Below the pieces are notes generated by a model, which saw only the letters and a program-made list of their open reading frames with translations, made no database searches and had not been told where the DNA came from. Of a stretch of DNA of 33,936 bases, positions 1,367-32,991 are shown one piece after another. Position 1 is the first letter of the stretch; each line of letters begins with the position of its first letter. The position numbers and the translations under genes are program-made. This DNA comes from a virus: IMG/VR virus record IMGVR_UViG_3300032214_000369, positions 1 to 33,936 of that record. One strand, written 5' to 3'.

Positions 1367-1900
1367 ATGAACACCGCCCCAGTCATCCTCGGCAATCACG
1401 GCTTTTTCTTCCGCGATGGCGCGAGCTTCACCGTCCCGTCCGCCGGCACCGCGAGCCGCACCGCAAAGCCCGGAGCCGCTGACACGTCTTGGATCGACCT
1501 CGGCATCTTGTCCGAGGTGACCATCCAGCACGAACGCGAGGAGCGCGACATCTTCGCCCCGACCCCGGGCGTGATGCGTCTCTATGACGTCATCGAGACC
1601 AAGCGCCAGTTGTCCGTCAACCTGACCGCCCAGGAACTCAGCCCGCTGGCATTCGAGATGATCTTTGGCACGTTGGCCCTCACCAACGCCTCGACCCAGT
1701 ACAACCCGCTGGAGGGCGCGACCAAGAAGGGCTGGCTCAAGCTGCAGCAGTACAACCAGGCCGACGCCATCGTCAACACGGTGGACCTCTACGTGCAGAT
1801 CAAGGTCTCGGGCGAGATCACCTTTGGCGACAACGTGGTGACCGCTCAATTCGAGGCCCGCGTTCTCCATTCGACGCTGAACACCGGCACCTTGGCCTAA
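1367..1900 (+). CDS. major tail tube protein (lambda V-like)
   Basis: The product has 177 residues and forms the tube through which DNA is ejected. The sequence alternates beta strands with acidic and basic loops, and has a central helix (TAQELSPLAFEMIFG, about residues 85-100) followed by strands ending in VVTAQFEARVL. This strand-helix-strand plan is that of siphovirus tail tube subunits and Hcp-like rings. It immediately follows the terminator-like gene and, once the inserted fibre block is removed, precedes the tail chaperones. The ATG at 1367 follows CCCAACCCAACC and has no Shine-Dalgarno sequence, a leader type shared with the coat protein gene. It is likely made in high copy late in infection. 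The tail identity is well supported by context, the exact family less so. Confidence 0.7.
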   Translation: MNTAPVILGNHGFFFRDGASFTVPSAGTASRTAKPGAADTSWIDLGILSEVTIQHEREERDIFAPTPGVMRLYDVIETKRQLSVNLTAQELSPLAFEMIFGTLALTNASTQYNPLEGATKKGWLKLQQYNQADAIVNTVDLYVQIKVSGEITFGDNVVTAQFEARVLHSTLNTGTLA

Positions 1901-1913
1901 CCCACCCACCGCA

Positions 1914-3083
1914 ATGCCAGCCGATCCAATCACGCCCGGCTTGGCCGCGGCATGGAGCAACAGCACCCCGACGATCTACGGTGTTCCTTCGAGGTTCACC
2001 GCGGTCGTTCGGGCTCAGAGCAACCTCACCTTGGCGGCTGCCCTGTCCGGTACCCTGGACGGGGTCAGCTTGCAGGGCACCGCGGCCACGGTTTCAAGCC
2101 GGGCCGTGTTGGTGACCGCGCAATCGACGACCAGCCAAAACGGCATCTACGTCGCCGCCGCGGGGGCAACCTCGGTGGACATCTCCGCGTCGTTCGGGGC
2201 GGGCACCAAGACCCAAACGGGACTGACCGCCGGTCGTCTCTATTACTGGTCCCAGGCCAACGGATACAACGTCACCAACGGCACCGAGACGCTGACCGTG
2301 TCCGGTCTCATTGCGGCATCACCGAGCGGGACGTTGACTTTCCAGGGCCCGGCATCGACCGGCCAGGCCGACCAACTCAACGAGGCCGTGCTGGCCCGGT
2401 TGAACCTGTTTGACGCCCCAAACGAGTTCCCGGTTGAAATCATCGTCGCTGTCACCGGGGGCACGTCCGCGAACACCTGGTGGCAACTCACCTCGACCGT
2501 GACCACGGTGGGAACGTCGCCCGTGATCTTTACCCAGATCACCGTGGGAAGCCTTGACGTCGGTCTGGAGGACAACCCATTCGACAACACCCCGCCGGGA
2601 GCCGCCACGCCCAACAACGCCACGGCATTCGACAATACCTCGCCGGTTCCGGTGATGCCAAACTTGTCCCAGTCGTTCGTCAACTCGACTCCCGACAACA
2701 AGACCCCGGGCAATGCGGCCGCGTTCGACAACACCGGAGCCACCGCGCTTGTCCTCCAGGGCGAGACTTCGCCGGTCGCCGGCATCACCACGCCCGCCAG
2801 CCCGACCGCCGTGGACCATACCGCCACGCTGGTCGCCGGGACCAACTACCTGGTGCAGGTCGGTGCCCGCCTCGCCCCGGTCACCATCAACCTGCCCAAC
2901 CCGGGCAGCCTCGCCCAGCGCATCGAGATCGCCGACATCTCCGGCCAGGGAGCAAGCCAGGCCATCACGGTCAACGGCGGGACAAGGGACATCGAGACGG
3001 CCGGCCAGACGTCCTACACCATCGACCGCAACGACGCGGTTCTGGTCCTCAGCTACACCGGCACCAAGTGGAAAATCCTCTGA
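1914..3083 (+). CDS. repeat-containing tail-associated / adhesin protein
   Basis: The product has 389 residues and is very rich in Thr, Ser, Ala, Asn and Gly, with almost no Cys. Residues 1-105 form beta-rich segments; residues 110-210 look like a second beta domain; residues 223-274 hold three tandem 16-residue units beginning FDNT or FVNS; the C-terminus (about residues 290-389) reads like a small beta-sandwich ending in LVLSYTGTKWKIL, an ending common in phage fibre and particle-decoration proteins. This composition suggests an extended virion-surface protein that contacts the host or supports a fibre. It opens an inserted block of adhesin genes between the V-like gene and the G-like chaperone. 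The leader again carries AACCC instead of a Shine-Dalgarno. The specific receptor role is not visible. Confidence 0.6.
   Translation: MPADPITPGLAAAWSNSTPTIYGVPSRFTAVVRAQSNLTLAAALSGTLDGVSLQGTAATVSSRAVLVTAQSTTSQNGIYVAAAGATSVDISASFGAGTKTQTGLTAGRLYYWSQANGYNVTNGTETLTVSGLIAASPSGTLTFQGPASTGQADQLNEAVLARLNLFDAPNEFPVEIIVAVTGGTSANTWWQLTSTVTTVGTSPVIFTQITVGSLDVGLEDNPFDNTPPGAATPNNATAFDNTSPVPVMPNLSQSFVNSTPDNKTPGNAAAFDNTGATALVLQGETSPVAGITTPASPTAVDHTATLVAGTNYLVQVGARLAPVTINLPNPGSLAQRIEIADISGQGASQAITVNGGTRDIETAGQTSYTIDRNDAVLVLSYTGTKWKIL
2580..2735 (+). repeat. tandem 48-bp repeat encoding 16-residue FDNT units
   Basis: Phenylalanine codons that start FDNT-type motifs fall at 2580, 2628, 2676 and 2724, exactly 48 bases apart. 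The units read FDNTPPGAATPNNATA, FDNTSPVPVMPNLSQS, FVNSTPDNKTPGNAAA and then a partial FDNT. Each has Pro near positions 5-6 and 10-11 and an Asn-Asn or Asn-X near the end. DNA identity between units is only moderate, so the duplications are old and the protein spacing is under selection. The likely role is a flexible spacer in a fibre. Confidence 0.8.
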
Positions 3084-3091
3084 CCTAACCC

Positions 3092-3376
3092 ATGATCTCC
3101 AAAATCGCCGTGGCGACGACCGCCACCCTTGTCGATCCGGCCACCGAACGGCAGTGGCTGATGATCCAAAACCAAAGCGACACGCCCATCTTTCTGTCAT
3201 TCGACGGCACCGCCACGGTGACCACGGACACGGGCGCGACTCCTGGAATCCGACTTGCCCCGTGGGATGTCATCATGTCCACGGATATCTCGGGCCGGTT
3301 CACCGGCAACAACTTTGCCATCTACGCCATCCACGGCGGGACCGGCACCAAGAACCTAGCCGTCCACGAAGCCTAA
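3092..3376 (+). CDS. small beta-rich tail-associated protein
   Basis: The product has 94 residues. Its layout is a short strand (KIAVATTATLVDPA), a WLMIQNQSDTPIFLSF strand pair, a Thr-rich loop, a GIRLAPWDVIMSTD segment and a final YAIHGG strand. I have a general recollection of similar one-domain proteins beside fibre genes in many phages, where the QNQSD-type motif recurs; they probably form a small beta-barrel on the fibre or baseplate. The ATG at 3092 follows CTAACCC directly. The gene sits between two adhesin-type genes and is probably co-expressed with them. I cannot assign an enzymatic function; a structural role is the reasonable reading. Confidence 0.6.
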   Translation: MISKIAVATTATLVDPATERQWLMIQNQSDTPIFLSFDGTATVTTDTGATPGIRLAPWDVIMSTDISGRFTGNNFAIYAIHGGTGTKNLAVHEA

Positions 3377-3388
3377 CACTTACCTACC

Positions 3389-4471
3389 ATGAGTTGGAAC
3401 ATCAAGACCCCAGGGGACTACATCAACGGACCGCTCACGGTGGCGGGCGTTACTCAATTTAATAGCAATGTCGGTGTTGGTATTTCACCAACGAGCCGGC
3501 TTCATATTGGCAACACGGCAGCGGCAACACGCCTAACAATCACCGACGATGTAGCAAACGGAAGGTCCGGCTACATTGAGTCAAATTACTCAGACGCGCT
3601 TGTAATTGGTACAACTTCTGGAGTTCGTGCAATTCGATTCTCTCCCGACGGAAAGCCTTACTACCAGATTGCAACCGACGGCGTTCAGACTTGGCTAGAC
3701 GGTGTTGGTGGAACTCGGATGACGCTCAATAGTTTCGGGTTTGGAATCGGTGAGAGTCCTAATCAAAAGTTCTCCGTCCTCGTTGCTGATGGCGCTCAAG
3801 CCGCTTCGTTTCGTGCTGCTTCTGGAAGACTTCGCATTCGGCCTTACGTCAACGCTGCTTACGGCTGTGCAATTCAGGCCACAAATGTGGCAGAAAACGC
3901 ACTGCAACTGCTGACGCTTGAGGGCGTTTCGATCAACTTAAATACGAACGGAGGAACGGCGTTGAGTCTCAACGCGAATGGAGCTGCCGCACTCATGGGA
4001 GCTTCGACTACCGCCAGCGGAGTCGGCATCACGTTCCCTGCCGCCCAGTCCGCCTCGACCGACGCCAACACGCTCGACGATTACGAGGAGGGGACTTGGA
4101 CGCCGATTATTGTTGGAGTCACAACCGCAGGAGTTGGAACATATTCTGCAAGAGTTGCACGATACACAAAGGTTGGAAACATGGTCACTTGCCATTGTTA
4201 CATGGATTGGACCGCGCATACTGGAGTTGGTGAAATGCAGCTTGCAGGACTTCCGTTTCAAACAAGCTCCGAAGCATCAAGTCATACTGCGGTTGCGTTT
4301 GGTTATGTTAACGGCATTAATTTAAGTGCTAACAATACACTTTATGGTTGGACTATCCCTGGAACAAACTCATTTAACTTTAATCAAGTTCCAACAGGTG
4401 GTGGTTCGATGGCTTCAGTTACTATTGATACTTCTGCTGCGTTGATTTTCACGGTCAGTTACCGAGTCTAA
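3389..4471 (+). CDS. tail fibre / receptor-binding protein of lower GC
   Basis: The product has 360 residues. The N-terminal 20 residues (SWNIKTPGDYINGPLTVAG) should anchor it to the tail. A repetitive beta region follows with VGVGISPTSRLHIG and SFGFGIGESPNQKFSV, the style of trimeric beta-helical fibres. Near residues 225-240 is NTLDDYEEGTWTP, a junction typical of the C-terminal receptor-binding module, followed by YSARVARYTKVGNMVTCHCYMDW and LAGLPF. From about 3450 to 4010 and again from about 4100 to the end, the DNA is clearly richer in A and T at codon third positions than the rest of the window, with a GC-rich patch around 4010-4095 over the conserved junction. This points to exchange of the host-specificity parts. 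It is followed by two small genes of a type often found beside fibres. Confidence 0.8.
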   Translation: MSWNIKTPGDYINGPLTVAGVTQFNSNVGVGISPTSRLHIGNTAAATRLTITDDVANGRSGYIESNYSDALVIGTTSGVRAIRFSPDGKPYYQIATDGVQTWLDGVGGTRMTLNSFGFGIGESPNQKFSVLVADGAQAASFRAASGRLRIRPYVNAAYGCAIQATNVAENALQLLTLEGVSINLNTNGGTALSLNANGAAALMGASTTASGVGITFPAAQSASTDANTLDDYEEGTWTPIIVGVTTAGVGTYSARVARYTKVGNMVTCHCYMDWTAHTGVGEMQLAGLPFQTSSEASSHTAVAFGYVNGINLSANNTLYGWTIPGTNSFNFNQVPTGGGSMASVTIDTSAALIFTVSYRV

Positions 4472-4475
4472 CACC

Positions 4476-4733
4476 ATGCAACTCACCGAAAAAACAATCC
4501 TCTCACTTGTTGAGGTCACGCCGAATGGCGTGATTCAAGTGCGTCTTGCTAACCAAATTCTGGACGGCGAGACCATAAAGGCGCAGACCTTCCACCGCTA
4601 TTGCCTGGCCCCTGGATCCGACCTGGACGGCCAGCCCGAGCAGGTGGTGACCGTTGCCACCGCGGCCTGGACTCCCGAGGTCATCGCTGCCTACCAGGCA
4701 CAACTCGCCACCAACATCCAACCCGGAGCCTAA
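4476..4733 (+). CDS. small fibre-adjacent protein, paralogue of the next gene
   Basis: The product has 85 residues. After an N-terminal TEKTILSLVEVTPNG and VQVRLANQILDG-like strand region it has FHRYCLAPGSDLDGQP near residues 45-60 and AAWTPEVIAAYQAQ near residues 68-82. I recall short proteins with this pattern next to tail fibre genes in many phages, where they may help fibre folding or assembly; that role is not established here. The next gene shares the same scheme. The first third of the gene has the lower GC of the upstream fibre, so the transferred segment may extend into it. Confidence 0.6.
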   Translation: MQLTEKTILSLVEVTPNGVIQVRLANQILDGETIKAQTFHRYCLAPGSDLDGQPEQVVTVATAAWTPEVIAAYQAQLATNIQPGA

Positions 4734-4736
4734 CCC

Positions 4737-5078
4737 ATGATCGAAACCAAGAACCGCTGCGCCGTCACCGTGCGGCCTGACTGCTCGTTGCTCGTCCAGG
4801 AGACTGTCGCCTATCTCAAGGACGGCGTTCAGGTCTCCGTGGAGCCGGTTGGCACCTACGACCTTGCTCCGGGCGATTCGCTCGATGGGAAACCGGCCGA
4901 GGCTGTCCGCATCGCTAACGCGCTGTGGACGCCGGAGGTCATCGCCGCGTGGGCCGCCGCGCACCCGAAGATCGAGCCCGAGATCGAGATCGTTGAAGTT
5001 GTCACCGCTGACGCTTCGGTCTCGACAGACGACACGCTGACGGCTGAGATCGCCGTGGAGGAAGTCTCCGCTCCCTGA
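4737..5078 (+). CDS. small fibre-adjacent protein, paralogue of the previous gene
   Basis: The product has 113 residues. It aligns over its first 75 residues with the preceding protein: both have a basic/hydrophobic opening, a ...LKDG- or ILDG-type strand turn, LAPG followed by a Leu-Asp-Gly-x-Pro motif, and WTPEVIAA at the end of the shared domain. It adds an acidic Glu/Asp/Val/Thr-rich tail of about 35 residues (for example EPEIEIVEVVTADASVSTDD). The start follows CTAACCC. The pair probably arose by duplication and then diverged. The GC here is back to the window norm. The function is unknown but presumably linked to the fibre. Confidence 0.6.
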   Translation: MIETKNRCAVTVRPDCSLLVQETVAYLKDGVQVSVEPVGTYDLAPGDSLDGKPAEAVRIANALWTPEVIAAWAAAHPKIEPEIEIVEVVTADASVSTDDTLTAEIAVEEVSAP

Positions 5079-5079
5079 C

Positions 5080-5331
5080 ATGGAAAACGCACCTGCACTC
5101 GCGCCCAAGCACGCCACGATCAAAGTCTTCGTCCTGAAGTTCACCGAAGCCGAGGCCCAGAAGGCCCTCGACATCTACGAGTGGGCCACCAGGACCGGAG
5201 GCCTCCCGATTGCCAAGGAAGTGCTGCCGCTCGCTGAAAAGTTCATGCAAGCCGCGCTCAAGGCGAAGGAAGCCGAGGAGGCAGCCAAGGCCGCCGCCGC
5301 CAACAAGCCCGAGGAACCCACCAAGAACTGA
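5080..5331 (+). CDS. hypothetical protein, helical, Ala/Lys/Glu-rich C-terminus
   Basis: The product has 83 residues. It begins one base after the previous stop (TGACATGG). After a short strand ATIKVFVLKFTE, the rest is predicted helix: EAEAQKALDIYEWATRTGG, then EVLPLAEKFMQAALKAKEAEEAAKAAA, ending in a charged tail. A helix of this kind could be a small coiled-coil or a peripheral membrane protein. I do not recognise the family. It sits at the entry to the small membrane-protein genes and may be transcribed with them. Confidence 0.6.
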   Translation: MENAPALAPKHATIKVFVLKFTEAEAQKALDIYEWATRTGGLPIAKEVLPLAEKFMQAALKAKEAEEAAKAAAANKPEEPTKN

Positions 5332-5339
5332 CCGCGACG

Positions 5340-5516
5340 ATGACGAACCAGACCCACGAAATCCGGGACGGATCCATCGGCATCGGATCCGGGCTCATGT
5401 CCGCGATCATGGGATGGCTCAAGCCGTTGGGCGAGTTCGCCTCGTCCATCGGTTCAATCGTGACCTGCATCATCGCCTGTGTGATGCTTTACCGTCTGCT
5501 CCGAAAGAAAGACTGA
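5340..5516 (+). CDS. small single-span membrane protein, holin-like candidate
   Basis: The frame encodes 58 residues from the ATG at 5340, eight bases after the previous stop. After a soluble start (MTNQTHEIRDG) comes a Gly/Ser/Met-rich stretch, then a clear membrane segment at about residues 34-52 (SIGSIVTCIIACVMLYRLL), closed by the positive tail RKKD. The positive-inside rule predicts the C-terminus in the cytoplasm. Small size, a late hydrophobic segment, and two further short membrane or lipoprotein genes following it suggest a lysis role such as a holin or antiholin. This is inference: no holin family signature is visible. Confidence 0.6.
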   Translation: MTNQTHEIRDGSIGIGSGLMSAIMGWLKPLGEFASSIGSIVTCIIACVMLYRLLRKKD

Positions 5517-5518
5517 CC

Positions 5519-5731
5519 ATGAACCTCAAAACCACCCTTGCCGGACTCGGCTCCATTCTCGCCGCCGTCGGCTTCGCGCTGAAGGCCATCTTCGACAACG
5601 ATCCCACGACCAACGTGGACATCGGGGCGACCATCGCGGCAATCACCGCGGGAGTTGGGCTCATCGCCGCCAAGGACGCCAAGCCCGCCAAGGCTGCCCA
5701 ACTGCCGGAGCCCACCGAGCCGAAGGCGTGA
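5519..5731 (+). CDS. small two-hydrophobic-segment membrane protein, holin-like
   Basis: The product has 70 residues. The ATG at 5519 comes two bases after the previous stop. There are two hydrophobic stretches, residues 5-25 (TTLAGLGSILAAVGFALKAIF) and 33-50 (IGATIAAITAGVGLIAAKD), joined by an acidic loop DNDPTTNVD. A Lys/Pro/Glu tail ends the protein. Two short membrane spans with Gly/Ala-rich helices and a charged tail are usual for class II holins and also for many uncharacterised phage membrane proteins. The neighbours strengthen a lysis-cassette reading. Whether this or the preceding gene makes the lethal pore cannot be decided here. Confidence 0.6.
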   Translation: MNLKTTLAGLGSILAAVGFALKAIFDNDPTTNVDIGATIAAITAGVGLIAAKDAKPAKAAQLPEPTEPKA

Positions 5732-5901
5732 ACTGGGTCGAACAGATCGTCACCGCCCTGGTGAAGTTCCTCTACGGCCTGACCAAGGAAAACCCGACCG
5801 CCCGAAATGCTGAAACACCTCCAGAGGTTCGCCGCGGTTGGAATGCTTGGCTTCGTGACCGGCTGCGGAACAAGGGCGGTGATGATCGACCCCAGGGCTG
5901 A
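5728..5901 (+). CDS. small protein overlapping a lipoprotein gene
   Basis: The frame encodes 57 residues. The GTG at 5728 overlaps the stop of the previous gene (GTGA), and the last 95 bases are shared, in another frame, with the lipoprotein gene at 5807. The N-terminus (NWVEQIVTALVKFLYGLTKE) is an amphipathic or weakly membrane-associated helix; the rest is basic, with Arg-Asp-Arg-Leu-Arg. The nested arrangement with a downstream lipoprotein recalls Rz/Rz1 spanin pairs, but the protein is much shorter than a normal inner-membrane spanin and lacks the long periplasmic coiled coil. It is a plausible real gene given the coupled start. Confidence 0.5.
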   Translation: MNWVEQIVTALVKFLYGLTKENPTARNAETPPEVRRGWNAWLRDRLRNKGGDDRPQG

Positions 5902-6037
5902 CGTCGTTCGCCTTGGGCCGGGAGTGCGCGGGCCGGTCTACGTGTTCGTGGATGGCCGTTGGACGCTGACCCGGAAAGTGACTCTGCCCGAAGGCTGGTT
6001 CGCCGGTCCCGGGCCTCAACCAGAAACCAAACCCTGA
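5807..6037 (+). CDS. putative lipoprotein (possible outer-membrane spanin)
   Basis: The product has 76 residues. The N-terminus has Lys-His-Leu-Gln-Arg, a hydrophobic core AAVGMLGF and a lipobox VTGC, with Cys at residue 20, so it should be cleaved by signal peptidase II and lipid-anchored. The mature part is about 57 residues, with PVYVFVDGRWTLTRKVTLPEGWF and a Pro-rich end (GPGPQPETKP). Short lipoproteins with Pro at the tail that overlap an upstream small membrane gene can be outer-membrane spanins. The mature domain, with its DGRW...LPEGW strand pattern, also resembles a small beta domain I loosely associate with other uncultured phages, so a spanin role stays a hypothesis. The lipobox itself is directly visible. 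Confidence 0.65.
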   Translation: MLKHLQRFAAVGMLGFVTGCGTRAVMIDPRADVVRLGPGVRGPVYVFVDGRWTLTRKVTLPEGWFAGPGPQPETKP

Positions 6038-6046
6038 CAGAACCCC

Positions 6047-6427
6047 ATGACTGACAGCATGGAAACATTGAAGGGCGGCCGTGAAATGGTCGCCTACACC
6101 ATCGACCGGAAGACGGAAATCGTTTTCCTCCGCCAACTCCCGGTTCGATTGCTCCCGCAGTACCTCGCCACCATCGACGACGAGGCTGCCCGGTTGGAAC
6201 TGCTGGCCGACAAGCCCGCGGGCTGGGCCGACAAGCTGACGGCCGATTCTCACGTCGAGTTGCTTGAGGTCGGGGAGGGCCTCAACACCGATTCTTTTTC
6301 CGCGTGGCTCCGTCGCAGAGTGCAGCGACAGGAGCAACTGGTGCCGGGATCAAGCGGCGAGTTGGGCAAGCAACTGCTGTCAGCCTCGCCGACTGGGTTG
6401 CCGAATGCGCGGTCCGCTGTGGTCTGA
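6047..6427 (+). CDS. tail assembly chaperone, short form (lambda G-like)
   Basis: The product has 126 residues in frame 2. It is helical and acidic, with VFLRQLPVRLLPQYLATIDDEAARLELL around residues 27-55 and SHVELLEVGEGLNTDSF at 70-86. Proteins of this size placed immediately before the tape measure gene are chaperones that bind the tape measure during tail assembly. A second open frame, one base back, begins inside this gene and runs to the tape measure, the classical lambda G/GT layout. The last 40 or so residues of the zero-frame product are Arg/Ser/Pro-rich and look less protein-like than the rest. That fits a short terminal extension made only when no frameshift occurs. The ATG follows AACCCC. 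Confidence 0.7.
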   Translation: MTDSMETLKGGREMVAYTIDRKTEIVFLRQLPVRLLPQYLATIDDEAARLELLADKPAGWADKLTADSHVELLEVGEGLNTDSFSAWLRRRVQRQEQLVPGSSGELGKQLLSASPTGLPNARSAVV

Positions 6428-6624
6428 CGCTCGCCCAGGCCGTCGAACACAGTCCGGCCCAGTTGCGGCTTTTGGCGGCTGCGGCCTCGCGCATTGACGC
6501 GGGGGCGGGGCTGCTCAATCTGCACACAACCTATGCGGCAACGGCCGCGACGGTTGCCAAGGAGGGCCGGACCGTGTTGGAACGCCTCCAGAAGCAACTG
6601 ACGAAACAAGCGAAAGGCGGCTGA
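6268..6624 (+). CDS. T-like extension of the tail chaperone, reached by -1 frameshift
   Basis: Frame 1 is open from 6268 (after a TGA at 6265-6267) to the TGA at 6622-6624, one base before the tape measure ATG. The only start codons in it, such as GTG 6304, have no ribosome binding site. From about 6380 on, the protein is clearly helical and coding in character (SLADWVAECAVRCGLTLAQAVEHSPAQLRLLAAAASRIDAGAG and onward to the Lys-rich end). It is therefore best read as the C-terminal part of a fusion of about 190 residues with the preceding chaperone. In lambda the GT product recruits tail tube subunits and G coats the tape measure. The frame relation (2 to 1) is the -1 direction, as required. 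Confidence 0.65.
   Translation, partial: GRGGPQHRFFFRVAPSQSAATGATGAGIKRRVGQATAVSLADWVAECAVRCGLTLAQAVEHSPAQLRLLAAAASRIDAGAGLLNLHTTYAATAATVAKEGRTVLERLQKQLTKQAKGG
6292..6301 (+). other. candidate -1 frameshift slip site
   Basis: The bases TTCTTTTTCC lie at the start of the region where both frames are open. In the zero frame they read ...GAT TCT TTT TCC. The TTT codon can re-pair perfectly one base back (T TTT), while TCC would re-pair as TTC with a second-position mismatch. It is thus not a textbook X-XXY-YYZ heptamer, but it is the best run of identical bases in the overlap 6268-6427. GC-rich sequence follows within 10 bases. The exact site is uncertain; the need for a frameshift is better supported than its position. 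Confidence 0.35.
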
Positions 6625-6625
6625 C

Positions 6626-9088
6626 ATGGCGGACACAAATCTACGGATCAAGATCGGGCTCCAGGGGTCCGCGGACGTCAACGCGGGTCTTCGGGCCATT
6701 GGGTCGGCCGCGTCGAGCCTCAAGGCAACGCTGGCCGGGGTGGCCGCGTCTGTCGGCGGCTTGGTAAGTCTCGGGGCCGCGATCCAGCAGTCCGTCCGGT
6801 TCAACGCCCAATTGGAGCAACAGGCGGTCGCATTCAAGACGCTGTTGGGCAACGCCGAGGCCGCGAGCCGTAGAATGGCTGAACTGGCCCGGTTCGCCGC
6901 TCAAACCCCGTTCGAGCTTCCCGAGATCGTCCAGGCGTCCAAGGTTCTCCAGAGCCTCACCAACGGAGCGCTGGCCACCGGGGACGGACTCCGCCTTGTC
7001 GGTGACGCCGCCGCGGCCACGGGACGACCGTTGGAGGAGGCCGCAATGTGGATCGGCCGCTTGTACGCTGGACTGCAGTCGGGAACGCCGGTCGGCGAGG
7101 CCACGTTGCGCCTCATCGAGATGGGTCTGATCTCCGGCACGACTGCCCGCAAGCTTAACGATCTTGCCGAGTCAGGTGAAGGTGCCGGCCAGGCCATGAC
7201 GATCCTCCGGGACACGTTCGGCCGCCTCGGTGGGGCGATGGCCGACCAGTCTCAGACGTTCAGCGGGTTGCTCTCAACCCTCAAAGACACGTTCAACATG
7301 GCGTTGGCCGACATCGGCAAGCCGTTGTTCGACGCGCTCAAAATCGGCATTGCCGAACTCATTCCGGTCGTCGAGGACGTTGGAGCCCGCATCGGTGCAT
7401 GGACCAGGATCGCCGTCCAATCGTGGCGGGATGGACGCTTGGCCGAGTTCATTGGTCTCACCATCGAGGCCGGGGTCGAATATGGCACCGAGGCTTTCGC
7501 AGAACTCCGCGACAAGGTCATCGGATTCTTTACCGACGAACGGGTGGCCAACGCTATCGGGAACTCGGCCGCGACGTTGGTGGCCGGCACCGCTAAGACA
7601 TTCATCGACCTCAACACGTTCTTCCAAAGCTATTGGAACTCCGTCGGGATCTACGCCGCCCAGGCCATCGGAGCCGCTATCCGCGCTTCAATCAACGCGG
7701 TCCTGGCCTCGGTTTCTGTCGCAACGTTGGGTAGGGTCAACCTTCCTCAAATCGAGCAAACGACCCCGAACTTTGCCGAGGCGCTGGCCGGTGGAACTGC
7801 CATTGCCCAGGCCAACGCCGCAAACCAAAAGCAGATCATAGACGCGCTGCTGGAAACCTACCGCGAGTTCATCGGAATTGAGTCCGGCATCACCGACGAA
7901 AGCGGAAAACAGATCACCGCCCGCGAAAAGCTCAAGGCGCTAATCGACCAGGTCTTGGCGACTGAGAGAGCCCGGAAAGAAATCACCGGAGGGGCCCAAG
8001 CCGTCATCGAAAACGAGGCGAAGCTCATCAACGTAAAGTTGGAGCTTCAAAAGCTCGAACTGTCCTACAACCGCCAACTTCAGCAAATCAACCAGGCCCG
8101 CGGGGCCGTCGAATCTAGTTGGCTGATGACCAACCTGGAAAAGTACCAGGAGAAAAAGCGTCTGATGCAGGGCGAGCTTGATCTCATCGCCCGGCAGATC
8201 ACCGAACTCGAAAAGCTCAAGGCCACCGCCACCGAGGCCGAGCGGGTGCAGATCGAGCAACGCATTGTCGGACTCCAAGGCACCGCGGGAGGGGTCCAGA
8301 ATCAAATGGTCGGCATGGGGCCGTCGCCGGAATCGTTCGGGGAGAACTTCCAGGCCACCGTCGTTCAACTCCAAAACCAGTTCGGAACGGTTGCCCAGCA
8401 AATGGCTTCGACGTTCGCCGACGTGTTCAACTCCGCGATCTCGTCCATCTCGAACGGGATCACGGGGCTCATCATGGGAACGATGTCTTGGGGTCAGGCC
8501 CTGATGATGATCGGGACCACGATTCTCACCACCATCGTCCAGTCCATCGTCCAAATGGGCGTCCGGTGGGTGGCGACTCAGATCCTCATGGCCACGGTGG
8601 GCAAGTCGATCATGGCCGCCAGCTTGGCCGCTACGATGCCAATCGCTGCCGCCTCAAGTGCGGTCTGGGCCACGCCCGCCACGTTGGCCACCATCGCGTC
8701 CTACGGTGCTGCCGCGGCCGCCGCTCCCGGATTCATCCTTGGAGCCCAGGGCATGGTCCTCGCGCAGTCGCTGGCCGCATTCAAGACGGGCGGCTACACG
8801 GGCGACGGCAACCCGAACGACGTGGCCGGCATCGTTCACCGGGGCGAGTTCGTGGTCCCGGCCGACGCTGTGGACCGCATCGGGTTGTCCACGCTCCAGG
8901 CCATGACCGCCGCGGGCGCATCCGATCCAGGTGCCTTCACGTCGCCGGCCGCCCCGGGTCCGATCACCCTCAATATGGGAGTCTTCGACAACCCGGCCAG
9001 GCTCGCTGACTGGGCGAAGTCCAACGACGGCCGGACGGTGTTGGTGGACATCATGCGACAACACGCCCACGAGTTTTCCCGCGCATGA
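6626..9088 (+). CDS. tape measure protein
   Basis: The product has 820 residues and starts two bases after the chaperone stop. It fixes tail length and is ejected with the DNA. Residues 1-50 are a Gly/Ala/Ser-rich strand-helix region; residues about 55-215 (QLEQQAVAFKTLLGNAEAASRRMAELARFAAQTPFELPEIVQASKVLQ and following) are the conserved tape-measure N-terminal domain known from many siphoviruses. Residues about 430-560 are a long coiled coil rich in Glu, Gln, Lys and Leu. Residues about 600-720 hold hydrophobic Gly/Ala/Met-rich segments able to cross the host membrane. The end (FKTGGYTGDGNPNDVAGIVHRGEFVVPADAV, about residues 709-739) is a motif common near the C-terminus of tape measures. 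At 820 residues it predicts a tail of lambda-like length. Confidence 0.92.
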   Translation: MADTNLRIKIGLQGSADVNAGLRAIGSAASSLKATLAGVAASVGGLVSLGAAIQQSVRFNAQLEQQAVAFKTLLGNAEAASRRMAELARFAAQTPFELPEIVQASKVLQSLTNGALATGDGLRLVGDAAAATGRPLEEAAMWIGRLYAGLQSGTPVGEATLRLIEMGLISGTTARKLNDLAESGEGAGQAMTILRDTFGRLGGAMADQSQTFSGLLSTLKDTFNMALADIGKPLFDALKIGIAELIPVVEDVGARIGAWTRIAVQSWRDGRLAEFIGLTIEAGVEYGTEAFAELRDKVIGFFTDERVANAIGNSAATLVAGTAKTFIDLNTFFQSYWNSVGIYAAQAIGAAIRASINAVLASVSVATLGRVNLPQIEQTTPNFAEALAGGTAIAQANAANQKQIIDALLETYREFIGIESGITDESGKQITAREKLKALIDQVLATERARKEITGGAQAVIENEAKLINVKLELQKLELSYNRQLQQINQARGAVESSWLMTNLEKYQEKKRLMQGELDLIARQITELEKLKATATEAERVQIEQRIVGLQGTAGGVQNQMVGMGPSPESFGENFQATVVQLQNQFGTVAQQMASTFADVFNSAISSISNGITGLIMGTMSWGQALMMIGTTILTTIVQSIVQMGVRWVATQILMATVGKSIMAASLAATMPIAAASSAVWATPATLATIASYGAAAAAAPGFILGAQGMVLAQSLAAFKTGGYTGDGNPNDVAGIVHRGEFVVPADAVDRIGLSTLQAMTAAGASDPGAFTSPAAPGPITLNMGVFDNPARLADWAKSNDGRTVLVDIMRQHAHEFSRA

Positions 9089-11109
9089 TCTCAACCACGT
9101 TCGCCGGCCAATCGGTTCTCTTGCTCAACGACGCCCCGGACTGGGGATCGCCGGTTGGAGCGACGTTCGACCTTGTCAGCCAGTTCGAGGAGGGGCTGAC
9201 CGGCCGCGAAGCTCGACGCCCCCACGCCGCGACGATGCGGGCCAAGCTGCGGTTCAGGGTCACTGTCCAGGGCACCGAGGCTTTCACGCTCAAAAACGCG
9301 CTGAGAGGCTACCAGGCGCAACCCATCATCGTCCCGTTCTGGCCGCTGGCCGAGACGTGGGCAAACCGGGCGAACATCGCCGCAACCGGTCTCCGGGTCG
9401 CTTACAAGGCCGACTGGTCAACCTGGGAACTCTACACCACGGTGGAGCCCGGGTGGGTGTTGGCCGATGACATGGTCGCCCCGGCATTCTGGGGACGCTT
9501 GGAAGATCGAGAAATGCTGTGGCTCAATGCCACGGTCGCCCAGTTCGACGTCGATTTCACAGAGACAGGCCCGACGACCTACGCGCTCATCCCGGGGAGC
9601 CAAACCTTCCAGGGTGGCCCCAACCTGGCAGGGTACGCCAGCAACCCGCGCTTGTGGCCGACCGCGTTGGATTGGCGGGACGTGCCGGAGTCGTTTTCCG
9701 TCCGCATCATCCGGGAGCAACTGGGCTTTGGCCGGACCCCGTTCGAGACGATCTACCCGCAGACCAACGCCCGAGAAGCCCAGTTCCGCACCGTCACCCA
9801 GTCGTCGGCCGAGTGCTGGAAGTTGCTGCGATTCTTCGCCGACCACGGGGCCGGCAAGCCGTTCTGGACGCCGACGTGGCATTCTGCCGCCGTGATGGCC
9901 GCAGACTTGGCCGCCGGATCATCTGCGCTGTCGGTGCAGTCGGCCGCCGGGATCCAGGCCGGAGACTACCTTGCGTTCATCCAGGGGACCGGGATCCAGG
10001 CATTCTCGAGGAGTTCCACCATCGTCGGGACGACGGTAAACCTCAACAGCGCCCCGGGAGCATTCGCTGCGGCCGAGACCGTGGTGGCCACGTTGGTCCT
10101 TGCCCGGCTCGACAAGCCGCGCATCGGTCTCGAGTTCATCATGGGGTCCGTTGCCCAGGGGGCGGTCTCCGTCGTCGAACTCCCGCCGGAATATTCGCCG
10201 GCCGCCGACGAAACCATCGGGACGACCATCGGGCTCCTGACGACTCGGGGCTACATCTACGAACTGGCCCAGACCATCGGTGTCACGACGACCACAACCC
10301 GATTGACCAGCTACGAGTCCGACCTGACCGTCGGGGCGAACACCTACACCGCCCGCCGCATGGATCACGGGGCGGTCAAACAGTCGCTTTTCCTCGACCG
10401 CGACGAGATCGAGGTCCGGTCCGAGATCATCGCAGGGGATCCGTTGGTCAAACTGGCGACCGCCCAGGCCGAGGCCCCGGTCAGGCTGACCATCTCATCG
10501 GTAGACGTGTCCGAGGCGACCGGCAGCAACGCCACGGTGCTTTTCACCGGAGACATCATCGGGCTGGCCGTTCGAGGCTCCAGACTCACAGCAAAGGCCG
10601 TTTCCGCGGGCACAGTGTTCGACCGCATCTATCCGCGTTTCAGAATGCAGGTCGGCTGTAACCACGCGCTGTTCTCACCCGGCTGCGGCCTGGCCAGCGC
10701 CGCCTGGCAGTTCACCGCGACACTCAGCAACCCGGGAACCATCGGCTACCCGTTCACGTTCGATCTCACCGGGCTCGCCCGAACCATCGGGACGGTCCCG
10801 ACGATCACCGCGGGCTGGTTTGCTGGAGGCTGGGCCGAGTTCGGATCCGGGGCGACACTCAGCCGCCGGGCGATCATCGACAACACCGCCGCAGCCGCAG
10901 GGGCTCTGACGATCACAATGGCCAGGGATCCGAGCCCGTTCCCGCCGCCGTTCTCAGCCGTGAAACTCTACCCGGGTTGCAACGGGGCAAAAGCGACGTG
11001 CGTGGACAAGTTCGCCAACTACGTCAACTTCGGCGGCCACCCGTTCATGCCCGCGACGAACCCGTCGCTGGTCAAAGTCTCGCAGAACATCGGAGGGGGT
11101 AAGAAATGA
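9085..11109 (+). CDS. distal tail fusion protein with Fe-S type domain (lambda M + L like)
   Basis: The product has 674 residues and overlaps the tape measure by ATGA. The first half holds two related segments: residues about 35-95 (GREARRPHAATMRAKLRFRVTVQG... then PIIVPFWP) and about 225-265 (NAREAQFRTVTQ... then GKPFWTPTW), as in DUF2460/distal-tail ring proteins. The second half, from about residue 345, resembles the DUF2163/gpL type. Four cysteines at residues 525, 534, 632 and 639 are spaced 9 and 7 apart within the pairs; as I recall, lambda gpL binds an Fe-S cluster with cysteines at 173, 182, 205 and 212, the same spacing. The last region reads CVDKFANYVNFGGHPFMPA, the usual signature. 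Lambda encodes M and L separately, so this looks like a fusion. The next gene is K-like, as expected. Confidence 0.8.
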   Translation: MISTTFAGQSVLLLNDAPDWGSPVGATFDLVSQFEEGLTGREARRPHAATMRAKLRFRVTVQGTEAFTLKNALRGYQAQPIIVPFWPLAETWANRANIAATGLRVAYKADWSTWELYTTVEPGWVLADDMVAPAFWGRLEDREMLWLNATVAQFDVDFTETGPTTYALIPGSQTFQGGPNLAGYASNPRLWPTALDWRDVPESFSVRIIREQLGFGRTPFETIYPQTNAREAQFRTVTQSSAECWKLLRFFADHGAGKPFWTPTWHSAAVMAADLAAGSSALSVQSAAGIQAGDYLAFIQGTGIQAFSRSSTIVGTTVNLNSAPGAFAAAETVVATLVLARLDKPRIGLEFIMGSVAQGAVSVVELPPEYSPAADETIGTTIGLLTTRGYIYELAQTIGVTTTTTRLTSYESDLTVGANTYTARRMDHGAVKQSLFLDRDEIEVRSEIIAGDPLVKLATAQAEAPVRLTISSVDVSEATGSNATVLFTGDIIGLAVRGSRLTAKAVSAGTVFDRIYPRFRMQVGCNHALFSPGCGLASAAWQFTATLSNPGTIGYPFTFDLTGLARTIGTVPTITAGWFAGGWAEFGSGATLSRRAIIDNTAAAAGALTITMARDPSPFPPPFSAVKLYPGCNGAKATCVDKFANYVNFGGHPFMPATNPSLVKVSQNIGGGKK

Positions 11110-11558
11110 CGCCTACATGGTTCACCGAGGAGCGCATCGACGCGCTCGAAGCCGAGGCCACCACTTGGGTGGGGACGCCGTTCGCTGCCAACTCATCGGC
11201 AAAGGGACTAGGCGTTTCCTGCCATACACTCGCGGGTGCCCTCTACGCCGCCGCGGGTTGGGGCGAGGTCATGATCCCGCAAGTGCCGATCTCCCACGGC
11301 CGGTTCGGTGAGGACTCACTCGCCAACCCGTTCTTCGAGGCCATGGCCGAAAGGTTCACCCAGCTTCCCCACGACGCCGAGGTGCTGCCCGGGGACGTCC
11401 TCGGGTTCCGCATTGGCCGGATCGTCCACCACCTCGGGGTGGCACTCCGCAATGGCCGGTTTATCCACGCGCTCGACGGCATCGGGACGACCGTGTCCAC
11501 CATCGAGGACGCAACTTATCGGTCGAGACTGACGACCATCTGGAGGCCCAACCCGTGA
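11106..11558 (+). CDS. NlpC/P60-type tail peptidase (lambda K-like)
   Basis: The product has 150 residues and is preceded by a strong GGAGGGGG ribosome binding site. The catalytic triad is visible: Cys39 in GVSCHTLAGALYAAAGWG, His108/His109 in GRIVHHLGVAL, and a third polar residue, probably His121 in FIHALDG. Before the histidine comes the usual LPGDVLGFR turn (residues 94-102). This is the compact peptidase type found in GTA gp14 and as a domain of lambda gpK. It cleaves peptide cross-links in peptidoglycan so the tail tip can penetrate. Its place between the gpL-like and hub genes is conserved in lambda and in gene transfer agents. It lacks the extra JAB domain of lambda gpK. Confidence 0.88.
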   Translation: MTPTWFTEERIDALEAEATTWVGTPFAANSSAKGLGVSCHTLAGALYAAAGWGEVMIPQVPISHGRFGEDSLANPFFEAMAERFTQLPHDAEVLPGDVLGFRIGRIVHHLGVALRNGRFIHALDGIGTTVSTIEDATYRSRLTTIWRPNP

Positions 11559-11752
11559 AAGGCGAGACCCGAAACCAACCCGACCCCGAGATCAACGACG
11601 GCAACACCGAGCCGGAAGACTTCTCGACCAACCAGGAGGCCGCTTCGATCCCGTGGTTCTGTGGTGAGCGCAAACTCGCGCTCCGGTGGGTCAGCCCGAT
11701 CTACAACCAGTTCACCAAGGAGGCCCCGGTCGAGCGCCCGGGCAAGAAATAG
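11555..11752 (+). CDS. 65-residue N-terminal piece of a split tail hub protein
   Basis: The frame encodes 65 residues and overlaps the peptidase stop by GTGA. The first 30 residues are acidic and disordered (Asn, Asp, Glu, Pro). The rest reads IPWFCGERKLALRWVSPIYNQF, then a basic KEAPVERPGKK. Hub proteins of the J type often open with a comparable G-x-R/K...W...P.Y segment, followed by a Lys/Gly-rich linker and the YxGxxAxxxCxGPVD segment, which here begins the next gene. The stop is TAG, and 11762 lies in the same frame with only TAG GAA ACG ACC between them. The two genes can therefore be one protein interrupted by an amber codon. The function alone is unknown. Confidence 0.7.
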   Translation: MKGETRNQPDPEINDGNTEPEDFSTNQEAASIPWFCGERKLALRWVSPIYNQFTKEAPVERPGKK

Positions 11753-11761
11753 GAAACGACC

Positions 11762-14665
11762 ATGGCAAAGAAAGGCGGGGACGCAGGAAGCAAGCTTTAC
11801 GATTACTACGGCACCATCGCGGGCGTGGTTTGCGCCGGGCCGGTGGACGAACTGGTCGCAATCTTGGTGGACGGCCGCATCGTCTGGCCTACCGCTACGT
11901 TCTGGAATGCCGGGCAAACCGTCGCAATCGGTGACCTCCGGCAATGGCTTGGGGTCGTCTGGAAGGCCACCCAGGCGCACACGACGAGCAACGCCAACAA
12001 GCCGCCGACCGCCACGCATTGGGTCCGGTACTCGTTGGTCAGAACTGTTGGGCCGAGTGCCACGAACCCCTACCCGCTGACCGTGGATGGCTACGGGTCG
12101 GCCTATTTCTATTGGGGCACTGACGACCAAGTTCTCGACACCGTCGGGGAGGCTCGCCTGTCAGCCAACGGGCACCCAGCCTACCGGCGGCAAGCCGTCC
12201 TTGTTCTCAAAGACTTCCTTTTCGGCCGGGAGCGCACGTCCGCGCCAAACGTCGAGGTCGTCGTCCGCAGGAAGCCCAACCAGACGATGCTGACCGGAGA
12301 TCCGGCCACGCTGATCGACGGACAGGCCAACCCGGTCGCCGCGATGGCTGACCTTTACACTGACCCGGTGTTCGGGGCGGCACTGACGCCGGACGCCCCG
12401 GGAGGCCCGGACACGACGACGTGGCAGTCCGCCGCCAACGCGATCCAAACCAGCATCGACGAGACCGGCATCTCTCCGGTTCTCACCCAGGCCAAGAGTC
12501 TCCGACAGATCACCGCAGACATCCTGGCCTACTGTGACGGGTGGGTCCGGTTCTCCGCTGCCGGGGAGATCGAGGCCGGGCGATTCCCGCACAACGCCGC
12601 GCCGCCCGCATTCACCGCGGCAACAACCATCGACTACAACGACCTGATCGACGAGGTCAGCTACACGGCCGACGGTTGGGCGACGACCTACAACCAAACC
12701 CAAGTCAAGTTCAACGACCGGGAGCGGTCCTACCGTGACGGGTCAGTTGCCGTGGTGAGTGGCTACAATCTCGCCGTGACCGGGGAGCCGCGCACCGCAA
12801 AGGTGGACCGCCCGTGGATCACTAGGAGAGCCCAGGCGGCCGAACACGCGGCCGAATATCAGAAAATTGTCGGTGAGCCAAAGTTGTCTGGGTCGCTGGT
12901 GGTCCGCGCCGAAAAGGCATCGAGCATCCGCCCAGGTGACCTGTTCTTACTCACCCACGATGCGCTGTCGGTCTCCATCGTCTGTCGGTGCATCGGGAAG
13001 GACATTGCGCAACCGCCCGCCGGCCGCGCCACGATCCGCTTCGAGTCCGACAGGGCCGCCGCCCCGGTTCCGTTCGCCCCGACGGGAGCCGCCGACGAGG
13101 GCAGCGCCTACCCGGACAACGAAACGCTTTCGCTACAGCAGTTCTTCCAGCCGCCGCCCGCGATGTTTGACTCAGACACCGACGCGGCCGTGGTCCCGTT
13201 GGTGGCCAGGACGTCGCCGGTCACAACCGGGGCCAACGTCTGGTTGCGGAAGGATGACTTGTCCGGGTTCTACCGCCTCGGGGTCATCGACCAGTTTGCA
13301 ATCCACGGCACGATTCAGGCGTCCTGGCCGTACTACAGCCGGGCGACATCGACGCGGAGCCGTTCGACCAACGTGGCCACCGTGGTCACTTCGACCGCGC
13401 ATAACCTGACGACCGGGGACGTCGTGACGATTTACGGGTTTGCTGACGCGACGTTCGACGGAACCGTGACCGTCACCGTGGTCAACTCCACGACGTTCAC
13501 CTACCCGAACACGGGAAGCTTCGTTTCCACCACGACCGACACCGGGGGAACCGTGACCACTGGCAACGAGGACAACACCGAGAACCTGCGGGTCACTTTG
13601 GACGCCGGCACCGTGTCCGCGGACTTGTCGAAGATGCTTTCGACCCAGACCGAGGACGCGATCAACGATAACGCGGTCTACGTGGTCATCTTCAAGGCAT
13701 CCGACCGCAAGGTGTTTGAGGTCTGCACCCTCCGCGCCATGAGGATCATCTCGGGAGATTCGTTCTACCGGCTCAAGGTCCGTCGGGCTCGGTACGGCAC
13801 TGAGACCAGGACGGCCGACGTCGGGGACAAGGTCTGGATCGGCTACAGGTCGGATCTCGCCTCGATGACCCACGAATCGTTCGTGGCCTACCTCGAAAAC
13901 CTTTCGACCGCGACGTTCCGCCTTCAGTCCGCCAACGCCGAATCGGTAGCCGACCTGTCGAACACGACCCTATGCCCTAATATTTCCTACACGTTCGCCG
14001 ATCCCTACGCCCCGACGACCACGTTTAACTCGGTGAAGGCGAACGGTGGGGAGATCACCGACTTCACGGTCCACTATGAAACGACTGACAGATGGACTGT
14101 CGAGGCCACGATCACCGACAAGTCAGCGGACCTGATCGGTGCCCGCCTCTATGCGAAAAACGGGGCGACGGAATTGCTCCTGTGGTCGGCCGACTACACG
14201 CCGTCGAGCTATCAAAAAGTGGTCGCCGAGTTCGTCATTCCAACAAACGGGAATTGGCAGGTCTACATGGCCGGACTCGACACGTCGGGCCGCATCCGCC
14301 GAAAGCAACTCACCGCGGGCGGAGGCACTTCGTCGGTGACGATTCAGATCCGAGGAAACAACGACACCGCCGCGCCGACGTTTGATCCTCCAGGCATGGG
14401 CTTCAGGTCCGGGCAGTTCCCGATCACCGTCACGTTGTCAACGCCCACGGCCGGGGCTCATATCGAATACAGCCTGGTGGCTTTGGGTGCGGCCGCGGGC
14501 ACTTACACGACGATTGCGGCAACGTCCGGGACCGTCGTGGTCGGGCGAAATAAACGCCTATACGCGAAGGCCCACGTCGGCGGCATGAACTACTCGGTCA
14601 CCGTCTACCACGATTACTACGTGGAGGTGGACGATTACTTCCCGCCTGGAACTCAGCCGCCATAA
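11762..14665 (+). CDS. central tail hub / tip attachment protein (lambda J-like)
   Basis: The product has 967 residues. The start has an AGGAAA ribosome binding site eight bases upstream. Residues 12-40 (KLYDYYGTIAGVVCAGPVDELVAILVDGRIVWP) form the conserved hub opening. An inserted GDLRQWLGVVWKA... segment (about residues 58-75) looks like a small carbohydrate-binding type loop. VLVLKDFLFGRERTSAPNVEVVVRR (about 146-170) and SLRQITADILAYCDGWVRFSAAGEIEAGRF (about 247-277) match hub beta domains that bind the tail tube. Fibronectin-like beta regions fill the middle; near the C-terminus (about residues 880-950) is a chitobiase C-terminal type fold (GAHIEYSLVALG... LYAKAHVGGMNYSV). It probably contacts the host surface. 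The gene ends the late operon. Confidence 0.85.
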   Translation: MAKKGGDAGSKLYDYYGTIAGVVCAGPVDELVAILVDGRIVWPTATFWNAGQTVAIGDLRQWLGVVWKATQAHTTSNANKPPTATHWVRYSLVRTVGPSATNPYPLTVDGYGSAYFYWGTDDQVLDTVGEARLSANGHPAYRRQAVLVLKDFLFGRERTSAPNVEVVVRRKPNQTMLTGDPATLIDGQANPVAAMADLYTDPVFGAALTPDAPGGPDTTTWQSAANAIQTSIDETGISPVLTQAKSLRQITADILAYCDGWVRFSAAGEIEAGRFPHNAAPPAFTAATTIDYNDLIDEVSYTADGWATTYNQTQVKFNDRERSYRDGSVAVVSGYNLAVTGEPRTAKVDRPWITRRAQAAEHAAEYQKIVGEPKLSGSLVVRAEKASSIRPGDLFLLTHDALSVSIVCRCIGKDIAQPPAGRATIRFESDRAAAPVPFAPTGAADEGSAYPDNETLSLQQFFQPPPAMFDSDTDAAVVPLVARTSPVTTGANVWLRKDDLSGFYRLGVIDQFAIHGTIQASWPYYSRATSTRSRSTNVATVVTSTAHNLTTGDVVTIYGFADATFDGTVTVTVVNSTTFTYPNTGSFVSTTTDTGGTVTTGNEDNTENLRVTLDAGTVSADLSKMLSTQTEDAINDNAVYVVIFKASDRKVFEVCTLRAMRIISGDSFYRLKVRRARYGTETRTADVGDKVWIGYRSDLASMTHESFVAYLENLSTATFRLQSANAESVADLSNTTLCPNISYTFADPYAPTTTFNSVKANGGEITDFTVHYETTDRWTVEATITDKSADLIGARLYAKNGATELLLWSADYTPSSYQKVVAEFVIPTNGNWQVYMAGLDTSGRIRRKQLTAGGGTSSVTIQIRGNNDTAAPTFDPPGMGFRSGQFPITVTLSTPTAGAHIEYSLVALGAAAGTYTTIAATSGTVVVGRNKRLYAKAHVGGMNYSVTVYHDYYVEVDDYFPPGTQPP

Positions 14666-26675: not shown

Positions 26676-27457
26676 AAGACCCCACCGTTTCCGTCATCAT
26701 CCCGTCGTTTCGGCGGGCTCACCCGGATCGCCTACCCGGTCGGGACTACTTCCAGTCCGCCCGATACTGCGTCCCGGAATCCCAGGCGAAGGACTACGCC
26801 AACGTGGTCGGGTCGTCCCGGGTGTTGGCGATCCCAGACTCGGCCGACGGTAACATTGCCCGCAAACGAAACTGGATCCTCCGAAACATCCCACGGCCAT
26901 TGCTCATGATCGACGACGACGTGAGCGGGCTTTGCCATACCGAGGGGGTCTACAAGCGGGGCCGGTGGACGGGCAAGAGCGATCAAAAAATCATGCTGAC
27001 CCCGGAGGAAGCCGACGACCTGATCGTCCGCGGGTTCAACCTCGCCCACCAGTTCGGATGCGTTCTGTGGGGTCTCAACCTCAACGAGGACGGGCGCATC
27101 TACAAACAGTTTAAGCCGTTCTCGCTGTCCGCCCCGGTGTTGGGGCCGTTCACCGGGCACTTCGCCCACCGTTATCTCAATGACGAAAGGATGGGGTCGA
27201 AGGACGACTACGACTTCGCGCTCCAGGTGTTAAACCGCGAGCGAAAGATTCTCCGGCTCAATAAGTACGCCTACGTCTGCGAACACGGGGACAACGCGGG
27301 CGGGATCGTGTCGAGCCGGACCATCGAGTCCGAAACCAAGTTCTGCCGCGCCATCGAAAGGAAGTGGGGCCGCCACGTCATCCAATACCCGCTGCAACCA
27401 AAACGCATGGCCGATTTGCTCAATGCCCGGGTCGTCGTGCCGATTGGGGACGTGTAA
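26672..27457 (+). CDS. glycosyltransferase-like protein (TAGT/GREB-like), candidate DNA modification
   Basis: The product has 261 residues. It starts VSVIIPSFRRAHPDR, has a core NIARKRNWILRNIPRPLLMIDDDVSGL with DDD at 81-83 (the metal and sugar-nucleotide motif), and later GSKDDYDFALQVLNRERKILRLNKYAY (about 175-201) with the acidic KDDYD and the following basic strand. This matches the plan of glycosyltransferase-fold proteins, including those that Iyer, Burroughs and Aravind linked to TET/JBP dioxygenases and base hypermodification in phages. No dioxygenase is visible in this window. It overlaps the ParB-like gene (ATGA) and the large terminase (TAATG). Sugar or other group addition to phage DNA is the main hypothesis. 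Confidence 0.7.
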   Translation: MKDPTVSVIIPSFRRAHPDRLPGRDYFQSARYCVPESQAKDYANVVGSSRVLAIPDSADGNIARKRNWILRNIPRPLLMIDDDVSGLCHTEGVYKRGRWTGKSDQKIMLTPEEADDLIVRGFNLAHQFGCVLWGLNLNEDGRIYKQFKPFSLSAPVLGPFTGHFAHRYLNDERMGSKDDYDFALQVLNRERKILRLNKYAYVCEHGDNAGGIVSSRTIESETKFCRAIERKWGRHVIQYPLQPKRMADLLNARVVVPIGDV

Positions 27458-29274: not shown

Positions 29275-29449
29275 CCTGCTCACGACCAAGGAACTCGCCG
29301 CCATGCTCAAGCGGGCTCCGTCCTACGTTTACGCCATGAAGGCCCGCGGGTTCCCGATGCCAGGAGGTCGGGCCAGGCTCACCGAGGCTCTGACGTGGCT
29401 CACCCGGCACCCGCAACCACGGGCGGAACGCCGTCACGGGCGCAAATGA
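29264..29449 (+). CDS. small excisionase-like helix-turn-helix protein
   Basis: The frame encodes 61 residues and overlaps the end of the terminase by 11 bases. Residues 6-30 (LTTKELAAMLKRAPSYVYAMKARGFPMPGG) have the MerR/excisionase winged-helix layout: a helix, a turn, a recognition helix with Tyr-Val-Tyr, and a Pro-Gly wing. It could regulate the head operon or act as a second packaging-specificity protein. Its position between terminase and portal is unusual for a regulator. No integrase exists in the window, so an excision role is unlikely. Confidence 0.6.
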   Translation: MQTDLLTTKELAAMLKRAPSYVYAMKARGFPMPGGRARLTEALTWLTRHPQPRAERRHGRK

Positions 29450-29565
29450 GCAAGGACGGGCCAACGCCCCGGTGGCGTCCGGTCCCGGATCATGCGGACC
29501 TTGAATCGTGGCAGTTTCTTCAGCATTCGCCCGCGGCCTGTTGCGTCACGTCTACTCGACGGTGA
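29446..29565 (+). CDS. possible 39-residue overlapping protein
   Basis: The frame starts at ATG 29446, overlapping the previous stop (ATGA), and ends at TGA 29563-29565, so it shares 58 bases with the next gene in another frame. The peptide reads MSKDGPTPRWRPVPDHADL followed by ESWQFLQHSPAACC, with two adjacent Cys. Overlap coupling is the only support; the composition is weakly protein-like. It may be a small gene or only a leader for the next one. Confidence 0.35.
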   Translation: MSKDGPTPRWRPVPDHADLESWQFLQHSPAACCVTSTRR

Positions 29566-29867
29566 CCCATGGGGCGACGTTGCTCGACAAGCTCAACAGC
29601 CTCAACAACGAGGCGGTCCACGCGCTTGAGTCTGGAAAGGTTCTTCAGCAGACCACCGGCAATGGCAGATCGGTGACGTTCCAGGTCAACGCCAACGAGG
29701 GCGTGACTCCGACCGAAATGGCCGAGGTTTACAGCCGCCTCTTGGACCTGTATGACGACGCCGTCGCCGCGGGGAACGTGACCGACGCGACCCGCTACGC
29801 CTACATGATGGCCCGGTTGAAGCCGATCCGGTCCTACCGAAACGATTTCTCGAACCTGATCCGATGA
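29508..29867 (+). CDS. head-tail joining protein-like (gpW position)
   Basis: The product has 119 residues from GTG 29508. A helical N-terminus (LLDKLNSLNNEAVHALESGKVLQQTTGNGRSVTFQVNANEGV) is followed by a helix pair TEMAEVYSRLLDLYDDAVAAGNVTDATRYAYMMARLKPIRSYRND. It lies between the large terminase and portal, where lambda has the 68-residue gpW. The size is larger, but the plan (two helices with a short strand pair in between) is compatible. The start is uncertain because an inner TTG could be used. It is a late-expressed virion component by context. Confidence 0.5.
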   Translation: MAVSSAFARGLLRHVYSTVTHGATLLDKLNSLNNEAVHALESGKVLQQTTGNGRSVTFQVNANEGVTPTEMAEVYSRLLDLYDDAVAAGNVTDATRYAYMMARLKPIRSYRNDFSNLIR

Positions 29868-32967: not shown

Positions 32968-32991
32968 CCTCACAACCAACCCAAACACACA

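Follow-up and report, generated by a model that had tools for sequence, protein, structure and literature searches.

The stretch of DNA analysed here (the window) comprises 33,936 bases from an IMG/VR virus record, and in it a TAG stop separates a 65-aa gene from the gene of a 967-aa tail hub. Judged from the homologous junctions, this TAG (11750–11752) is an ordinary gene boundary. A stable split is the explanation we regard as quite probable, in which a 65-aa arm ends at the TAG, the hub is restarted at ATG 11762, and the arm would most likely bind the hub as a separate chain, in trans. On this view the 65-aa protein, which has its own start and terminates at the TAG, corresponds to the N-terminal beta arm of such a hub. 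Hub translation would begin anew at the ATG from an AGGA overlapping the stop, probably through coupled re-initiation. The features concerned are collected in Table 1.

Table 1. Features around the TAG junction in the window.
Feature	Position	Strand	Basis
gpL-like upper hub/baseplate protein (Phage_phiJL001_Gp84_N + Phage_BR0599)	9085..11109	+	Pfam and PHROGs matches
NlpC/P60 tail protein, lambda K position	11106..11558	+	Pfam NLPC_P60 above cut-off
GGAGG ribosome-binding site of 65-aa gene, 8 nt 5' of GTG	11542..11546	+	sequence
65-aa hub arm protein (putative), stop included	11555..11752	+	30 homologues; dN/dS 0.06–0.3 (closer ones); AlphaFold strands
Residues 30–60 of 65-aa protein, two predicted strands	11642–11734	+	AlphaFold (strands 37–42, 50–56)
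TAG stop, true terminator	11750..11752	+	homologues end in TAG, TGA, or TAA; hub frequently in another frame
AGGA ribosome-binding site of hub, 7 nt 5' of ATG	11751..11754	+	overlap repeated in TAG-bearing relatives
Stop-to-ATG spacer	11753..11761	+	3 to 15 nt in short-spacer relatives, no multiples-of-three constraint
967-aa J/pb3-type tail hub	11762..14665	+	PHROG 1101, Phage-tail_3, Foldseek/VIA matches
HDII–HDIV core of hub	about 11768–13060	+	structural matches JBD30, Chi, RcGTA, T5, lambda

Gene order in the window runs from the gpL-like gene through the NlpC gene and the 65-aa gene to the hub, which is the same as lambda L-K-I-J. The 967-aa protein is a siphophage J/pb3-type baseplate hub; it has the HDII–HDIV fold and matched both Phage-tail_3 (above the cut-off) and PHROG 1101 (at 9e-25). 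The 65-aa family had no PHROG or Pfam match, and a PDB sequence search returned no match for either protein. Relatives were gathered by searches with the 65-aa protein, the hub, and alignments of both. Purifying selection acts on the 65-aa protein: compared with nearer relatives, its ORF showed pN of 0.03–0.10 and pS of 0.25–0.51, with a dN/dS of roughly 0.06–0.13 for close relatives and 0.2–0.3 for middling ones. Its C-terminus is strongly conserved up to the stop, mostly as RPGKK, which fits the expectation for a real protein end. The gpL-like protein of the window ends in GGGKK (11080–11109) and the 65-aa protein in RPGKK (11738–11752), and Gly-Lys-Lys or Lys-Lys C-termini recur in both families among the relatives (L038, L041, L108, L110).

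The 65-aa protein and hub of the window were modelled with AlphaFold2 as one joined chain, with the TAG read as Gln and a 28-row alignment as input (mean pLDDT 74, pTM 0.63). Residues 30–60 contributed two strands (37–42 and 50–56) to the hub fold at a pLDDT of about 80, while the polar residues 1–29 (pLDDT under 40) and residues 64–78, the TAG region (pLDDT below 50), were disordered. Foldseek and VIA matched the joined model to the hub proteins of JBD30, Chi, RcGTA, T5, and lambda. JBD30 gp53 and the phage Chi hub matched the hub core best in structure (Z about 24), and the VIA Z values were 24.3 for JBD30, 22.1 for RcGTA, and 21 for T5. VIA alignment ranges, which give the first and last aligned residues only, began at model residues 21–27 for the RcGTA, R4C, and T5 chains, inside the 65-aa protein, whereas JBD30 and Chi aligned only from 72–74 and lambda J from 56–83, at about the start of the hub itself. 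In the RcGTA hub and T5 pb3, where the alignment begins within the arm, the arm is a covalent part of the hub.

One relative (L077) carries the two parts as a single uninterrupted ORF, in which the arm segment ALPWGVGKNVFALKWLTPAYNQ joins the hub GYNVYADVAGAVCAGPVDQL with no intervening stop. This fused ORF stands after gpL-like and NlpC genes, and its arm, of the same kind as in the window, lies ahead of the GP-containing segment of the hub as a covalent part of it. Its AlphaFold model, of lower confidence (mean pLDDT 65), placed the corresponding strands at 36–41 and 49–60. The first-pass annotation had likened the short protein to the natural start of such hubs, and the fused relative and the structure models bear this out. 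The long hub of L077 (L077:3980-8167) also contains Gly-rich, collagen-like stretches and repeated segments toward its C-terminal side. By eye, the tail protein of Septimatrevirus (PaMx42) has a similar arm, covalent there, before a GP-containing hub segment; the 65-aa profile aligned weakly and in the expected register with Septimatrevirus hub N-termini, at a level that was not significant. In a tree, split and fused hubs fell on two sides of one branch with weak support (65/32), L077 being a long branch. The natural series of fused, adjacent in any frame, separated, and relocated arms could serve to study how genes of a structural machine undergo fission.

Lambda gpI, the tail-tip insertion protein, offers a parallel for the proposed docking. 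Residues 135–223 of gpI line the lumen and extend the gpJ sheets with additional strands (PMC10721106). Like the 65-aa gene, gpI is encoded separately between a NlpC-type (K-like) protein and a J-type hub, and by eye its C-terminus (LPVLYGEMRVG) resembles the IPWFCGERKLA of the 65-aa protein, which is also much like the P..YG.R..GG motif in which gpI homologues end. Lambda gpI has 223 aa and its family about 200 aa, with an N-terminal domain and hydrophobic helices; the 65-aa protein has neither and its N-terminus is polar. An hhalign comparison of the 65-aa and gpI profiles gave a probability of 8.6% in a different register and was not significant. Given the missing N-terminal domain and this result, we did not file the 65-aa protein as gpI. 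With the gene order matching lambda L-K-I-J, it most likely plays the part of the gpI C-terminal arm and completes the hub in trans; the arm would dock on the hub trimer via beta-strand addition, as the gpI C-terminal segment does on gpJ, although the model itself is of a joined chain. Its role in the virion is likewise inferred. HK022 has extra genes right after its gpI gene, in parallel to two relatives (L043, 2505–3000; L044, 2554–3000) with an extra ORF containing CxxC-type segments between the 65-aa gene and the hub; this ORF is absent from the window.

A rival role for the 65-aa protein is that of a tail assembly factor outside the virion, its likeness to a hub N-terminus being incidental. 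The disordered polar N-terminus and the lack of any detected family match would suit such a factor, but the fusion to the hub in L077, the gpI synteny, and the strands predicted within the hub fold speak for an arm, and we consider the assembly factor rather unlikely. Returning to the arm docked in trans, we lean slightly toward a broader proposal, that in this phage lineage (probably of Verrucomicrobia) the N-terminal beta arm of the hub exists as a separate 65-aa protein whose gene can change place; acting in trans, it would complete the hub fold and be a pared-down functional equivalent of gpI. If so, hub assembly would wait on a separate donor-strand peptide. Hub domains of siphophages are distributed over one to three chains, with as many as three in lambda (PMC13243795), and for this reason a split hub arm is a modest further variant of a known theme. 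It again shows that the number of chains in a siphophage hub may be one, two, or more, and a small unannotated family gains a probable role.

The first-pass annotation had drawn attention to the TAG as the only one among the annotated stops, in frame with the hub, and recounting confirmed this: 47 genes, chosen by eye from the ORFs, ended in 35 TGA, 11 TAA, and one TAG. After the TAG, GAA ACG ACC lead in the same frame to the ATG of the hub, whose ORF ends with TAA at 14663–14665. TAG makes up 20% of all stop triplets on both strands of the window, so it is rarer as a terminator (1/47) than by chance. The TGA excess arises partly because at least 22 TGA stops can double as the start of the next gene (NTGA). 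For any boundary, a single TAG would share the frame of the following gene with a chance of about 1 in 3.

Among the relatives, the 65-aa protein was separate from the hub in 30 other contigs and fused in one. The stop of the 65-aa gene in the 30 split contigs was TAG in 21 (L002–L018, L039, L041, L042, L109), TGA in seven (L040, L043, L044, L073, L074, L075, L078), and TAA in two (L108, L110). The hub was in frame with the TAG in 13 of the 21 and out of frame in eight (L002, whose contig ends 20 bases past its TAG, L012–L017, and L039); at the L012 junction, TAGGACTTACCATGG, reading through would yield an unrelated peptide. ATGA overlaps formed the junction in L073 and L078. The stop was TGA in three relatives whose hub lies further off, the conserved hub motif following it after 567 nt (L043), 515 nt (L044), and 1,184 nt (L040). 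On two Verrucomicrobia MAG contigs (L108, L110), the 65-aa gene lies ~3.7 kb upstream of the hub, with another ORF, a gpL-like gene, and an NlpC gene in between.

The claimed ribosome-binding site of the hub, given as AGGAAA, was recovered as AGGA, which starts within the TAG stop and shares its AG. Nineteen short-spacer relatives that carry TAG have the same overlap. Close relatives have GGA directly 3' of the TA of the stop (TAGGA), giving AGGA or AGGAGG 5–10 nt before the hub ATG; L074 and L109 are exceptions, with a short spacer and no overlapping site. The TAG probably persists through sharing bases with the ribosome-binding site of the hub, since the AG of the stop begins the AGGA. What fixes an in-frame TAG boundary may be an overlap with a ribosome-binding site and not recoding, which calls for caution with such cases.

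Programmed amber readthrough, by which a full-length hub of about 1,036 aa would arise as a minor or major product, would account for the in-frame TAG of the window and of 13 relatives and for the fusion in L077. It is nevertheless very improbable, as the same TAG is kept in eight relatives with the hub out of frame, short spacers of 3–15 nt show no frame conservation, other relatives have inserts, relocation, or a TGA or TAA stop, and the hub has its own ribosome-binding site. A suppressor tRNA had been suggested as a further sign of readthrough, but tRNA scans of the window and of 22 related loci, none of them a known complete genome, came back empty. Literature on phage readthrough yielded nothing specific. 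A sequencing error or recent nonsense mutation in a fused gene, to which L077 might also point, is practically negligible given the same split in 30 separate contigs and purifying selection on the short piece. Because stops, frames, spacers, inserts, and gene position vary over the 30 contigs, both are excluded as general explanations. The stable split is therefore the one of the three options first proposed that stood, and the homologue alignment proposed along with them returned two separate, well-conserved proteins with varied stops, a gene boundary. Reassignment of TAG, as in recoded phages, was rejected on the evidence of the relatives; the main genes of the window are open under code 11, and no suppressor tRNA was found.

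A profile scan of host genomes with the hub identified relatives on three Verrucomicrobia contigs, and the host of the phage is probably a member of the Verrucomicrobia for this reason. The 65-aa profile found no relatives in the host genomes. Directly before the tape measure gene, two ORFs (6047–6427 and 6304–6624) overlap by 124 nt in a −1 relation. Tail assembly chaperones produced by frameshifting are usually encoded here; the two ORFs had no PHROG match, and no clear in-frame slippery heptamer was seen in them. Genes for the terminase, portal, protease, and major head protein occupy the right end of the window (27364–33882) and tail genes the left (1367–9088), and the record therefore probably represents a circularly permuted genome, cut open between head and tail genes.
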